Below, piece by piece: positions 49,566 to 57,337 of a stretch of DNA of 64,000 bases (position 1 is its first letter; each line of letters opens with the position of its first letter). The stretch is from Anaeromyxobacter sp. Fw109-5 (GTDB taxonomy: Bacteria; Myxococcota; Myxococcia; Myxococcales; Anaeromyxobacteraceae). The notes below the pieces were generated by a model. It ran no database searches. It was not told where the DNA came from and saw nothing but the letters and a program-made list of their open reading frames with translations. The translations under genes and the position numbers were made by a program. The DNA lies in assembly GCF_000017505.1 (NCBI RefSeq), contig NC_009675.1:930001-994000 (forward strand). The letters run 5' to 3'.

Positions 49566-50894
49566 TCAGGCCGCGGCGCCGCGCTTCGGGAACAGGTGCG
49601 CCCACCGAGCGGCGCCCTCGCGCGAGGCGCCGGGGCGGCGCGTGACGACCGGCAGGATCGCCGCCACGAGCAGCATCGCGGCGATCACCGGCAGGGCGCC
49701 GGAGAACGAGCCGGTCAGGTCCTTCACCAGCGACACGAAGATCGGACCGACCACCCCGCCCACGCCCCAGGCCAGCAGGATCCACCCGTAGTTCACGCCC
49801 ATGTACTTCGTGCCGAAGTAGTCGGCGGTGAACGACGGCATCGTCCCGAACCCGCCGCCGTAGCCGAGCAGCACGACCGCGAAGAGGACGGAGACCACGG
49901 GCAGCGAGTGGACGCCCCCGACGAGGAAGAAGATCACGGCCTGCGAGCCGTAGATGAGGAGGTACGCGGCGTTCCGGCCGATGCGGTCCGAGACGGCGCC
50001 CCAGAAGAACCGGCCGAGCCCGTTGAAGAGGGCGATGAACCCGTAGACCGCGAGCGCCGCCTCGGGCGCGGTCCCGGTGAGCTCGCGCATGATCGGCACG
50101 GCGTTCGAGATGAACAGGATGCCGGCGGTGACGTTCAGGAAGAGCATCGCCCAGAGCGCCCAGAACTGGGGCGTGCGAAGCGCCTCGGAGGGCGCGTAGT
50201 CGCGGGCCACGCGCGAGGGGGCCGTCGCCGGCGCCGCGCCCGGCACCGCGCCTTGGGCGGGCGGGTCTCGCAGCGCGAGCGCGCAGAGCCCGCCCAGCGC
50301 CGCGAAGACGACCCCGGACCAGACGAAGGTCCGCATGACGGTGCTCACCGCCTCCGGGGAGAGCGCCCGGCCGCCGCCCGCCGCGACGACGGCCGCCGCC
50401 TCGCGGGACGCCGCCGCGAACGCGGGGATCGCCTTCAGGACGTTGTTGTAGAAGAACGCGCCGAGCCCGAAGCCCATCACGACCATGCCGCTGCCGAGCC
50501 CGCGCCGATCGGGGAACCACTTCGTCACCGCGGCGACCGGCGTGACGTACCCGAGCCCGAGCCCGAGCCCGCCGATCACCCCGTACGTCGCGTAGAGCCA
50601 CGGCGCTCCCAGGCCAGGGGTGCCGAGCCCCGCGAGCACGTTGCCGAGCCCCCACAGGAGGAGGCCCGTCACCGCCACCTGCCGCGGTCCCCGGGCGTCC
50701 TGCCAACGCCCGCCGACGACCGCGCCGATCCCGAGGAACAGGATCGCGAGGGAGAAGCTCCAGGTGGTGGTGGTGTTCGACCAGCCGAAGGCCGCGATGA
50801 GCGGCTGCGTGAAGAGGCTCCAGGAGTAGACGGTCCCGAGGCACGCCATCGCCACCGTCCCCGCCGCGGCGATGAGCCAGCGATTCGAAGCCAT
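49566..50894 (-). CDS. OFA-family major facilitator, probable oxalate/formate-type transporter
   Basis: 442 residues with twelve hydrophobic segments. The N-terminus (YSWSLFTQPLIAAFGWSNTT, abridged) and GGRWQDARGPRQV are hallmarks of the oxalate:formate antiporter (OFA) family of the major facilitators. It lies 21 bp behind moaA at the end of the formate dehydrogenase operon, so formate or another small carboxylate is a reasonable substrate. That is inference from context; family members also carry other monocarboxylates. Confidence 0.85.
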   Translation of the reverse strand: MASNRWLIAAAGTVAMACLGTVYSWSLFTQPLIAAFGWSNTTTTWSFSLAILFLGIGAVVGGRWQDARGPRQVAVTGLLLWGLGNVLAGLGTPGLGAPWLYATYGVIGGLGLGLGYVTPVAAVTKWFPDRRGLGSGMVVMGFGLGAFFYNNVLKAIPAFAAASREAAAVVAAGGGRALSPEAVSTVMRTFVWSGVVFAALGGLCALALRDPPAQGAVPGAAPATAPSRVARDYAPSEALRTPQFWALWAMLFLNVTAGILFISNAVPIMRELTGTAPEAALAVYGFIALFNGLGRFFWGAVSDRIGRNAAYLLIYGSQAVIFFLVGGVHSLPVVSVLFAVVLLGYGGGFGTMPSFTADYFGTKYMGVNYGWILLAWGVGGVVGPIFVSLVKDLTGSFSGALPVIAAMLLVAAILPVVTRRPGASREGAARWAHLFPKRGAAA

Positions 50895-50915: not shown

Positions 50916-51971
50916 CTACCCTCCTATCCCGCGCATCGCGAGCAGCACGAGCCCCGAGCGCGCCTCCTCCATGTGGTGGCGCGGCGCCTTCCGCCCGAGC
51001 GCGCCCGCGACCGCCTCCGCGAGCGCCTCGTCCGGCTCGCCCGCACGCATCCGATCCCGCAGCTGCACGCGATCGGCGCCGCCGAGGCAGGCCTGGAACC
51101 CCCCGTCCGCCGCGATCCTCGCCCGGTTGCAGTCCTCGCAGAAGTTCTCGGTCATCGCGCCGATGAACCCGACGAGCCCCTCGCGTCCGTCGCGATCCCG
51201 CCCGCGCATGTGGCGGGCGGGGCCCCAGCCGCGGAAGCGGTCCGGGGTCAGGGAGATGCCGGCCTCCTCCAGCCGGCGGCGGACCTCGGCGAGCGGGACG
51301 ACCTCGCCCCCTGCGAACGGCATCTGCTCGATGAACCGTGGGAGGGCGCCGCGGTCCCAGGCGTAGCGCACGAGGTCGGCCACCTCGTCCTCGTTCACGC
51401 CGGGCATCACCACGGTGTTGATCTTGAGCGAGCGGAACTTCCCCGCGGCCGCGTCGATGCCCGAGAGGATCCGCTCGAGCCGCGCCGCCTGGCCGGAGAC
51501 GCCGCGGAGGCGCTCCGGCGCGAGCGTGTCGAGGGACACGTTCAGCGCGCCGAGCCCCGCCCCACGGAAGGGCTCGACGAGCTCGTCGAGCCGGTGGCCG
51601 TTGGTGGTGATCGCGACGTCCTCGATGCCCGGGGTCCCCGCCGCGTCCGCGACGAGCTCGACCACGTCCTTGCGGAGCGTCGGCTCGCCGCCGGTGAGCC
51701 GGACGCGCCGCACGCCCAGCGCGGCGAAGAGCCGGAAGAGCCGGGCCAGCTCGGCTCGCGAGAGGAGGGCGTCCGGGGGCTCGTGCGCCGCGGGGGAACA
51801 GTAGGTGCAGCGGAAGTTGCAGCGATCCGTGAGCGAGACGCGCAGGTAGCTGATGTTCCGGCCCTGCGCGTCCACGAGCGCGCCGCGCGGGTTGCACGCG
51901 CCGTTCACCGCTGCGCCCGCGGCGGGGCGCGTGGCCGGCTGCGGCCCGGCGAGATCAGGGGAACGCTCCAT
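50916..51971 (-). CDS. moaA: GTP 3',8-cyclase MoaA (molybdenum cofactor biosynthesis)
   Basis: 351 residues of a radical-SAM enzyme. The N-terminal cluster is CNFRCTYC (near residue 52), the SAM-binding glycines are TGGEP, and the C-terminal second-cluster motif is ENFCEDCNRARIAADG with a further Cys 14 residues on. It ends in Gly-Gly, as catalytic MoaA does. It makes the pterin precursor of the molybdenum cofactor needed by the FdnG encoded upstream. Its first 17 bp overlap the nrfD-type gene. The first 30 residues are an unusual Ala/Pro extension. Confidence 0.95.
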   Translation of the reverse strand: MERSPDLAGPQPATRPAAGAAVNGACNPRGALVDAQGRNISYLRVSLTDRCNFRCTYCSPAAHEPPDALLSRAELARLFRLFAALGVRRVRLTGGEPTLRKDVVELVADAAGTPGIEDVAITTNGHRLDELVEPFRGAGLGALNVSLDTLAPERLRGVSGQAARLERILSGIDAAAGKFRSLKINTVVMPGVNEDEVADLVRYAWDRGALPRFIEQMPFAGGEVVPLAEVRRRLEEAGISLTPDRFRGWGPARHMRGRDRDGREGLVGFIGAMTENFCEDCNRARIAADGGFQACLGGADRVQLRDRMRAGEPDEALAEAVAGALGRKAPRHHMEEARSGLVLLAMRGIGG

Positions 51972-53124
51972 GCTCCACCGATTCCTGGCCCGTCGCTTCG
52001 ATCCCGCGCGGCGCGGGCATCCGTCCGGGCGCCTCTCCCTTCCTAAGAACCTCCGCGGCCCCGCGCCCGGCGCGCTGCTGTTCGAACGTCGCGTGCGGGT
52101 CCCGGGCGGAGGCCCGGCCCGCCGCGACCACCCCGAAGCGGACGGCGAGCGTCCCCAGCGTGCCGAGCACGCCCGAGGCGATCCGCAGGCCCGGCGAGCC
52201 GCGGCGCAGCAGGTCGAGGACCGCCGATGCCGCGAGCGACGCGCGCGCCACCCGGAGCAGGACGCCCGCCTCTCCGCGGCCCAGCGGGTGGCGCACGCGC
52301 TCGACCTGCGCCTCGCGGTGGAGCGCCCAGGTGAGCGCGAGCTCTCCGCCCTTCGCGACGAGCCCGAAGCGGCGGGCCATCTCGCCGCCCGCGCCGGGCG
52401 GCGGCCAGAGATCCATGGCGGCGCCTGCGCTCACGGCCCCGGAGAAGGCGAACAGCATCGGGAGGGTGTTGCGCGTCTGCTGCCACACCGGGACGGCGGT
52501 GTTGGCGAGCAGCACGCCGGTGTAGCCGACGAGGGGGAGCCCTACGAGCCCCGCCCCGAGCCCCGCCAGGTCGGCCGGGCGCCGCAGGCCCCGCGCGCCG
52601 ATCGCCTCCGGCAGCGCCGCCGCACCGGACAGGGCGCCGAACGCGGACAGCGTCCAGGTCCCCATGTTCATCGGGGACGTCGGGCGGAACACCCTCAGCA
52701 TCGCGAGGAAGCGCGAGGGGCGGCCGAGGTCCGCGATGAGGAGCCCGGCGCTCGCGACCGCGCCGCCCGCGGCGACGAGCCGGCACCGCCGGACGAGGCC
52801 CGCCGTGTCGCGTCCGCCGGCGAGCTGGGCGGCGGCGCCGAGCACCGCGGCCGCGCCCGCGAGGCCGCCCACGTAGAAGTACGCCGGGATCATCCACCTC
52901 CACACGGGCTCCTTCAGCACCGGCAGGCCGTGGTAGCTCGGCCCCTCGGCCTCCTCTCGCGCGCGCTCCGCCGTGAACCGCTCGAGCCGCGCGAGCGCGG
53001 CCGCCGCCCGCCCGGGCGAGGCGCGCTGCGCGGACCCCTCGCCGGCGAGGCGCCCCACCGCCGGATCCACGTTGCGCCCGTCGCGGGCCGCCTGCTGCCG
53101 CCGCAGCGGATCGCTCGCGTCCAT
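51955..53124 (-). CDS. NrfD/PsrC-type membrane subunit of formate dehydrogenase
   Basis: 389 residues from ATG 53124. A soluble Arg-rich N-terminus of 75 residues is followed by about eight hydrophobic segments (first WMIPAYFYVGGLAGAAAVLG, abridged). IADLGRPSRFLAMLRVF and SPMNMGTWTL are NrfD-family signatures. It anchors FdnH to the membrane and exchanges electrons with quinone. It replaces the cytochrome b subunit of E. coli FdnGHI. The start overlaps the fdnH stop (ATGA). The C-terminal 60 residues are Arg/Ala-rich and cytoplasmic. Confidence 0.92.
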   Translation of the reverse strand: MDASDPLRRQQAARDGRNVDPAVGRLAGEGSAQRASPGRAAAALARLERFTAERAREEAEGPSYHGLPVLKEPVWRWMIPAYFYVGGLAGAAAVLGAAAQLAGGRDTAGLVRRCRLVAAGGAVASAGLLIADLGRPSRFLAMLRVFRPTSPMNMGTWTLSAFGALSGAAALPEAIGARGLRRPADLAGLGAGLVGLPLVGYTGVLLANTAVPVWQQTRNTLPMLFAFSGAVSAGAAMDLWPPPGAGGEMARRFGLVAKGGELALTWALHREAQVERVRHPLGRGEAGVLLRVARASLAASAVLDLLRRGSPGLRIASGVLGTLGTLAVRFGVVAAGRASARDPHATFEQQRAGRGAAEVLRKGEAPGRMPAPRGIEATGQESVEHGAFP

Positions 53125-54053
53125 CACGTCCTCCGCGCAGAGACCACCGCCGCCATCGCGAGCGCCGCGAGCGAGAGCACGCCGGCGGCCATCGATCGCC
53201 ACGACCGCACGATCTTCGCGGTGGGCACCACCGGATCGGGGGGGAGGTTGTAGACCTCCGGCCGATCGCACAGCAGGAAGAACGCGTGAAGCCCCTCGGT
53301 GCCCGGCTGGCTCGCCGCGTCCTCGCCGTACAGGTACGCGTCGCCCACGCCGCGCGCGCGCAGCTGCTCGACGCGGCGGCGGGCCCGCGCCCGCAGGTCG
53401 TCGAGCGCGCCGAACTGGATCGACGCGGTCGGGCAGGCCTTCGCGCACGCCGGCACCATCCCGCCCCTCAGCCGGTCGTAGCAGAGGGTGCACTTCCAGG
53501 CGCGCCCGTCCTCCTCGCGCCGCTCGATCACGCCGAACGGGCACGCGGACACGCAGTACCCGCAGCCGTTGCACACGTCCGGCTGCACGTAGACCGACCC
53601 GAACTCGGTGCGCACGATCGCGCCGGTGGGGCAGGCCTCCAGGCAGCCGGCGCGCTCGCAGTGCTTGCAGACGTCGGACATCATGAGCCAGGAGAACCTG
53701 CCGAGCGCGCGCTCCGTCGGGCCGAGCGCCACCGGCGTCTCCAGGTGCGTCGGCTGGATGTCGCCGAGCAGGCTCGTGGGTCCGGGCTGCCCGGCCGGGA
53801 ACAGCTCGCCGAAGGCCCGGGCCCCGCCCTCGACGCCGTCGCGAGGGCTGCCCTGCCCCGGCAGCTCCGCGGCGCGCTCCACGAAGGCGACGTGGCGCCA
53901 GGTCGAGGCGCCGAGCATCCCGGTGTTGTCATAGCTCATCCCGGTGAAGCGGAAGCCGTCGTCGGGGAGCTGGTTCCACTGCTTGCACGCGACCTCGCAC
54001 GCCTTGCAGCCGATGCAGAGCGTCGTGTCGGTGAAGAAGCCCAGCCGCTGCAT
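53124..54053 (-). CDS. fdnH: Formate dehydrogenase iron-sulfur subunit
   Basis: 309 residues with four ferredoxin-type clusters: CIGCKACEVACKQWN at the N-terminus, CKHCERAGCLEACP near 135, CNGCGYCVSACPFG near 168, and a split CTLC...CAKACP set. A C-terminal hydrophobic segment (about 284-305; AAGVLSLAALAMAAVV) anchors the protein. It relays electrons from FdnG to the NrfD-type subunit. It starts 2 bp after the fdnG stop. There is no N-terminal export signal, matching FdnG. Confidence 0.94.
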   Translation of the reverse strand: MQRLGFFTDTTLCIGCKACEVACKQWNQLPDDGFRFTGMSYDNTGMLGASTWRHVAFVERAAELPGQGSPRDGVEGGARAFGELFPAGQPGPTSLLGDIQPTHLETPVALGPTERALGRFSWLMMSDVCKHCERAGCLEACPTGAIVRTEFGSVYVQPDVCNGCGYCVSACPFGVIERREEDGRAWKCTLCYDRLRGGMVPACAKACPTASIQFGALDDLRARARRRVEQLRARGVGDAYLYGEDAASQPGTEGLHAFFLLCDRPEVYNLPPDPVVPTAKIVRSWRSMAAGVLSLAALAMAAVVSARRT

Positions 54054-54055
54054 GG

Positions 54056-57000
54056 CTACTTCCTCGGCTCGGTGGGCGGGTGGCGATGCGCCGTCCGGAT
54101 CCCCGGGAGATCCCGCGGCGGCGGCGCGTGGGGCGGCTCGGGCCGGCGGAGCTCGAGCCCGTCGGTCGCGGACCGCCGTCCGCGGGAGTGGCGGCCCTCG
54201 CGGATGTCCGCGGTGAGCGCCTTCGACTCCTGGATCGAGACGTTCGGGTCGGCGACGAACGGGATGAGCTCGTTCGCGGGATCGCCGCGCACGCGCCCCA
54301 CGTAGCTCCAGTGGTAGGGGAGGCCGATGGTGTGGAGCGTCCGGCCCCTGACGCGGAGCGGCTTCATCCGCTCCGTCACGAGCACGCGGCACTCGATCTC
54401 GCCGCGCGCGGTGGTGATCGTGGCCCAGCGCCCGTTCGCGAGCCCCTTCTCCGCGGCGAGCTCCGGGGAGATCTCGCAGAACAGCTCGGGCTGCAGCTCG
54501 GCGAGCCACGAGAGCCAGCGGCTCATCCCGCCCGCCGTGTGGTGCTCCGTGAGGCGGTACGTCGTGACCACGTACGGGAAGCGCGGATCCGCGAACGCCC
54601 GGTGGTACGGGTTGTCGCCGCGGTGCCACTCCATGCGGGCGGGGTTGCACTGCTGCCGGTAGAGCGGGTTCTCGATCACCGACTCCTCCGGCTCGTAGTG
54701 CGTCGGGAGCGGGCCGTCGAGGAGGCCCGACGGCGCGAAGAGCCAGCCCTTCCCGTCGGCCTGCATGATGAAGGGATCGTCGCCGGAGAGCGTGGCGAGC
54801 CCCTGCGCGTCGGGAGGAGGGCGGTACGAGGGCGGGCGGTCGGCGATGAAGTCCGGGACGTCGTACCCTGTCCACGCGCGCCTCTCCCCGTCCCACCAGA
54901 CGTAGCGCTTCCGCTCCGACCAGGGGCGCCCCTGGGGATCCGCCGAGGCGCGGTTGTAGAGGATCCGCCGGTTGGACGGCCAGGCCCAGCCCCACTCCGG
55001 CGCCACCCAGTGCTGGTCGCCCTGCGGCTTGCGGCGCGCGGGCTGGTTCACGCCGTCCTTGTAGCACCCGGAGTAGATCCAGCAGCCGCACGCCGTCGAG
55101 CCGTCGTCGGCGAGCTCCTTGAACCCGGGCACCGGCCTGCCGTCCGCGACGGTGAACCCGTTCACCTCGCGCAGCACCGCCTCCGCGTCCGGCTCCTCGT
55201 GCCTCCCCTTCGTCGGGTAGTCCCAGGTGAGCGCGCGGAGCGCCTCGGCGTTTGGCCCCGGCTCGTCGGCGTAGAGGCGCTTCAGGCGGCGGCCGAGGTG
55301 GTACGCGAACCAGAGATCGCTGCGGCAGTCGCCGGGCGGCTCGATCGCCTGGTGGTGCCACTGCAGGCAGCGCTGCGTGTTCGTGAACGAGCCGTCCTTC
55401 TCGGTGTGCGCCGCGGCCGGGAAGAAGAACACCTCCGTCCGGATGTCCTCGGTGCGGATCTCGCCGCGGGCGATCTCCGGCGCCGTGCGCCAGAACTCGG
55501 CGGTCTCGGTGAGGGCGAAGTCCCGCACGACGAGCCAGTCGAGCGCGCGCAGGCCCTTGCGGTGGAGGCTCCCGTGCATCGAGCCGACGGTCGGGTTCTC
55601 GCCGAGGACGAGGTACCCCTTCACCTTCCCGTCCGCCATCTCGGAGACGGTCGTCATGTGCGAGTGGTTGCCCGACAGGCGCGGCAAAGCGTCGAACAGC
55701 CAGTCGTTCTCACGCGTCGCGGCGTCCCCGAACCACGCCCTCAGCAGCGACACGACGTACTTGGGCATCTCGCTCCACCAGCCGGACGGCGAGCGGTTGT
55801 TCTTCAGGTAGCGCTCGAGGCCCCGGTCCGGCAGGAGGGCGTGCGGCATGGGCAGGTAGCCGGGGAGCATGTCGAACAGCGTCGGGATGTCCGTCGAGCC
55901 CTGGATGGACGCGTGGCCGCGCAGCGCCATGATCCCGCCCCCCGGACGCCCGATGTTGCCGAGGAGGAGCTGCAGGATGGCCGCGGTGCGGATGTACTGG
56001 ACGCCCACCGAGTGCTGCGTCCACCCGACGGCGTAGCAGAACGCCCCGGTCCGCTCGCGGCCGGAGTTGCGGCACAGGGTCTCGGCGACCTCGAGGAACA
56101 GCGGCTCGGGGATGCCGCACGTCTCCGCCACGACCTCCGGCGTGTAGCGGGAGAAGTGCCGCCTCAGGAGCTGGAAGACGCAGCGTGGGTCCTGCAGCGT
56201 GGGGTCGGTCCTGCGCTCGAGGACGTTGCCGTGCAGCGCCTCCCGGCCGGCGCCCTTCTCGGCGAAGAGCTCCTTGTGCCCGGCGGCGGGCACCGTGCCC
56301 GCGACGCCTTCGTACGACCAGGTCTCCGGGTCGTACGAGTTCGCCTCCGGGTCGAACCCGCTGAAGAGGCCCTCCAGGTCCTCGGTGTCCCGGAAGCGCT
56401 CGTCCACGAGGGTGGCCGCGTTCGTGTAGTGGAGGACGTACTCCTCGAACCAGCGCCGGTTCTCGATGACGTGGCGGACGAGGCCGCCGAGGAAGGCGAT
56501 GTCGGAGCCGGGGCGGATGGGGACGTGGAGGTCGGAGACGGCGCTCGTGCGCGTGAAGCGCGGATCGACGTGGATGACCGTCGCGCCGCGGTTCTTCGCC
56601 TCCATCACCCAGCGGAAGGCGACCGGGTGGCACTCGGCCATGTTCGAGCCCTGCACGACGATCCAGTCGGCGTTCTGCAGGTCAGCGGGGAAGGTCGTCG
56701 CGCCGCCGCGGCCGAACGAGATCCCCAGACCGGGGACCGTGGAGCTGTGTCAGATCCGCGCCTGGTTCTCCACCTGCACGATGCCGAGCGCCGTGTAGAG
56801 CTTCTTGAGGAGGTAGTTCTCCTCGTTGTCGAGCGTCGCGCCGCCGAGGTGCGCGACCCCGAGCGAGCGACGCACCCGCGCGCCGTGATGCTTCGCGCCG
56901 GGATCCTCGATGCGTTCCTCGAAGGTCGCGTCGCGCGAGCGCTTCACGCGCTCGGCGACCATGTCCATCGCCCGCTCCAGCGGGATGCGCTCCCACGCCG

Positions 57001-57337
57001 TGGCGCCCGGCCTGCGGTGGAGGACGTGCTGCTCGCGGTGCGAGCCGGTGACGAGCTGGAAGGTCGCGGCGCCCTTCGGGCAGAGGCAGCCCTGGGACAT
57101 GGGCGAGTCGGGATCCCCCTCGATGTCGATGATCCGCTCGTCCTTCACGTACACGAGCTGGCCGCAGCCGACGGCGCAGTACGGGCAGATGGAGCGGACC
57201 ACGCGATCCGCCGAGGCGGTGCGGGGCGCGAGCTCGCGCGTCCGCTCGCTCATCGCGCTCGCGCCGAGGCCGGAGCCATCGCCCGAGACGAGCTGCCGTG
57301 CGACCGGCCAGTCGGAGATGACGGGCAGCCTGGGCAT
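54056..57337 (-). CDS. fdnG: Selenocysteine-containing formate dehydrogenase catalytic subunit
   Basis: 1093 residues including selenocysteine at residue 196, encoded by TGA 56752-56750 (NQARI-Sec-HSSTVPG). The N-terminus has the 4Fe-4S motif CPYCAVGCG; after the Sec come FGRGGATTFPADLQNADW, QGSNMAECHP and the rest of a full molybdopterin-dinucleotide enzyme. It oxidises formate to CO2, with Sec ligating Mo or W. No twin-arginine signal is present before the Fe-S domain, so it is probably cytoplasmic. The start is ATG 57337, with GGGGGG about 8 bp upstream. Translation as two separate proteins is ruled out by continuity of the family alignment and by the SECIS. Confidence 0.96.
56723..56752 (-). 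promoter_or_regulatory. UGA selenocysteine codon and bacterial SECIS hairpin
   Basis: After TGA (56752-56750) come 18 nt ending in the stem CCCC, then the apical loop GGTCT (56731-56727) and GGGG. From memory, E. coli fdhF has GGUCU in its SelB-binding loop at the same 18-nt distance, so this is a textbook SECIS. Confidence 0.93.

Follow-up and report, generated by a model that had tools for sequence, protein, structure and literature searches.

An alpha gene at 54056..57337 (minus strand) of the window, the whole 64-kb stretch of Anaeromyxobacter sp. Fw109-5 DNA that was analysed, almost certainly encodes a selenocysteine (Sec) formate dehydrogenase (FDH) in which UGA codon 196 is decoded by SelB and a SECIS hairpin.

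A single frame with one internal TGA

The minus-strand frame from 57337 to 54056 is open for 1093 codons and is interrupted only by a TGA at 56750..56752 (minus strand), codon 196. The original prediction, that two adjacent open reading frames are one protein which a gene caller would split, holds in both parts; there is one frame broken by the TGA alone, and translation with table 11 yields ORFs at 57370-56750 and 56656-54056. Read through, the 1093-residue product (FdnG/FdhA type) matches NF041513 over its full length (1869.6 bits) and TIGR01553 (979.9 bits), both above the curated cut-offs. Pfam molybdopterin and Fe4S4 domains are found in it, and it is homologous to solved Sec-containing FDHs (Escherichia coli FdnG, 1kqf, and the 8cm4 group). 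The gene product is thus a full-length FDH-alpha molybdopterin oxidoreductase, and E. coli FdnG and the protein described here are both molybdopterin alpha subunits of about 1000 residues. The TGA had been placed where FDHs have Sec or Cys, and codon 196 does match the Sec of E. coli FdnG. Its context, NQARI-U-HSSTVPG, is that of the active site, with the conserved His next; the E. coli counterpart is NQARV-U-HGPTVAS, and in both Sec is assigned to UGA.

Orthologs of the NF041513 type were found in Actinomycetota, Myxococcota and Geobacterales. The alpha protein is 60-92% identical to the named loci, the closest being that of Anaeromyxobacter soli (92%). All 110 ortholog loci read by codon have a stop at the Sec codon (TGA in 106, TAG in 4), counts that are not independent events since the loci share descent and a few genomes, drawn from two collections, are possibly counted twice. 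A Cys version at this codon was seen in none of these 110. The four TAG loci (L069, L099, L105 and L109) are from Geodermatophilus and Blastococcus (Geodermatophilaceae) and have the same SECIS hairpin after the TAG; a tRNA-Sec with anticodon CUA has been published for the Geodermatophilaceae (PMC5330540). Across 195 genomes of the phylum, the full-length matches listed, at 67% identity or more, each carry one internal TGA. In every genome with a full-length match selA scores above its cut-off, as judged from two tables compared by reading.

The SECIS hairpin and its conservation

The RNA downstream of the UGA has as its minimum free energy fold a stem of 7 bp closed by the loop GGUCU. With the U of UGA as +1, the stem occupies +15..+21 and +27..+33 and the apical GGUCU +22..+26 (56720..56738, minus strand). 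A hairpin 3' of the TGA had been predicted, along with a folding check, and this stem-loop is what the fold recovers; the spacing of 18 nucleotides assigned to its CCCC arm requires correction: that arm begins at +18, 14 nt past the codon, and it is the GGUC loop, beginning at +22, that lies 18 nt past it. Comparison with the fdhF sequence of E. coli shows an identical register, the GGUC loop starting at +22. The E. coli loops, GGUC in fdhF and AGUC in fdnG, have the same spacing from UGA as the loop here. The bulged U of the E. coli fdhF upper stem is absent and the fold is a continuous stem; such a bulge is not universal among bacterial SECIS elements.

Folding energy is no evidence for the element, since GC-rich DNA makes it unremarkable (z = -0.60 against shuffles). 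A search of the 64-kb window at Rfam gathering thresholds matched no family, and the SECIS was therefore judged by register and covariation. When the same peptide was recoded synonymously with local codon usage, 7 bp and a GGTC loop appeared at the same register in 0.19% of the recodings. Both bases of the stem pair +18/+30 are synonymous third positions, and in each of the 70 distinct sequences they pair, as C-G, G-C, U-A or U-G. In shuffles of this pair the mean number paired was 39, and 70 was reached in 0 of 20000. Because of the recoding null and the covariation among relatives, the hairpin is more than chance; it is under selection. Conservation among relatives does not extend to the outermost pair, +15/+33, and the common stem is for this reason probably 6 bp.

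The loop codon GGT (codon 203) is the sole GGT among the 96 Gly codons of the alpha gene. The codon is GGT or AGT in all 111 entries (the 110 loci and the paralog L024), and elsewhere in the same genes GGC and AGC predominate over GGT and AGT. Several relatives (L040, L044, L068, L089 and others) have the loop AGUU or AGUC for GGUC; Ser replaces Gly there, the first loop base being G or A. No block of synonymous conservation near the SECIS stands out among the 10-codon windows of the gene, and such conservation is not counted in favor of the element, though individual codons, GGT 203 among them, do stand out. The element has what defines a bacterial SECIS: a hairpin, a GGUC-type loop, a fixed distance from the UGA and selection.

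Decoding genes and the reading of the UGA

The genome surveyed is one contig of 5,277,990 bases, 99.96% complete. That it must hold selA, selB, selC and selD, all outside the window, was anticipated correctly. The selA, selB and selD genes each exceed their curated cut-offs, selB is a full-length ORF of 651 aa, and a tRNA-Sec with anticodon UCA is present. A second match to the tRNA-Sec model (L015) was rejected, as ARAGORN identifies it as tRNA-Ser. The selD gene, the tRNA-Sec gene and selA/selB are found at different genomic sites, and none adjoins the alpha gene; scattered sel genes are common, but they give no linkage support. Homologs of fdhD and fdhE are also present. The selD gene (L010, genome 4028582-4029508, minus strand) is itself interrupted in frame by a TGA in the active-site motif MSHGAG-U-ACKI, so that making SelD requires SelD itself.

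Two further FDH alpha genes in the genome are each interrupted by an in-frame TGA, and downstream of it, in the corresponding position, stands a SECIS-like sequence. One (L023) is at 3547692-3550667 on the minus strand and the other (L024/L025) at 2272917-2275916 on the plus strand. For Anaeromyxobacter dehalogenans, 11 selenoproteins were reported in Genome Biology in 2006, including three FdhA and a SelD, and FdhA and SelD were described there as the most widespread selenoproteins (PMC1794560). The same set, three FdhA and one Sec SelD, occurs in the genome described here, that of a different species or strain. Sec FDHs, and their occurrence in Anaeromyxobacter, were already known (PMC1794560). 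FdhA is the most common selenoprotein family of bacteria, and the alpha gene is an ordinary case.

In the proposed mechanism, the product of the alpha gene would act as the catalytic subunit in a formate dehydrogenase of the Mo/W-bisMGD type. SelA and SelD would supply Sec on the tRNA-Sec (UCA), and SelB would bind the GGUC-loop hairpin just 3' of the UGA and insert Sec at codon 196. Sec 196 would then be a metal ligand at the active site, and electrons would pass from alpha to the adjacent iron-sulfur subunit and on to an NrfD-like membrane subunit.

A naive annotator would label an in-frame TGA a nonsense mutation, and the gene would then be a pseudogene or carry a sequencing error, with the TGA as a true stop. 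That explanation is extremely improbable for the alpha gene. The same TGA is found in all independent orthologs, the 898 codons downstream of it are still conserved at 67-92% identity, and the hairpin covaries among relatives. In about 50 related myxobacterial genomes the full-length orthologs all have the one TGA, which argues against sequencing error. Alternatively, a near-cognate tRNA could read the TGA as Cys or Trp with no part played by a SECIS. Bacteria do show low-level UGA readthrough, yet the Sec machinery is complete here and the SECIS stands in the canonical register, kept there by covariation, and we give such decoding hardly any weight. Reading of the UGA as selenocysteine, as the original prediction had it, is the interpretation favored by selA, selB, selD, the tRNA-Sec (UCA) and the register and covariation of the SECIS.

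Operon neighbors and significance

Four genes follow on the same strand. The first (53124..54053) encodes an iron-sulfur beta subunit of ferredoxin type, 309 aa, with Fer4 Pfam matches; its best NCBIfam FDH-beta match, TIGR01582, scores 186 bits, below the cut-off of 334.7. The second (51955..53127, start codon uncertain) is a probable NrfD-like membrane subunit with a weak NrfD match (28 bits, E 9.4e-7). MoaA, for molybdenum cofactor synthesis, is encoded at 50916..51971 (TIGR02666, 307.6 bits, above cut-off). An MFS transporter of the lactate / oxalate-formate type, a possible substrate carrier, is encoded at 49566..50894; it scores 349.8 bits with NF049980 (L-lactate), above cut-off, and 222 bits with the oxalate/formate family, below cut-off. 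The gene order suggests that the alpha, beta, NrfD-like, MoaA and MFS genes form one transcript and that there is one complex.

The E. coli FdnGHI enzyme has a twin-arginine signal on alpha, an FdnH-type beta subunit and a cytochrome b gamma subunit, FdnI. This arrangement is not matched by the operon, whose beta subunit does not reach the FDH-beta cut-off and whose membrane subunit is of the NrfD-like kind. No twin-arginine motif was seen by reading residues 1-44 of alpha, whose start codon is uncertain, and the periplasmic FdnGHI layout is for that reason not assumed. With a Sec FDH that has no visible Tat signal, an NrfD-like subunit, MoaA and an organic-acid carrier, the operon might represent a formate:quinone module that faces the cytoplasm and differs from FdnGHI, its alpha subunit being common to Myxococcota, Geobacterales and Actinomycetota; this is a tentative suggestion, and on balance a doubtful one.

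The alpha gene raises no new question on Sec decoding. It provides a clean and fully checked example, from sequence, of Sec recoding, and it matters for annotation, where a naive gene caller breaks the gene in two and the catalytic residue is lost.
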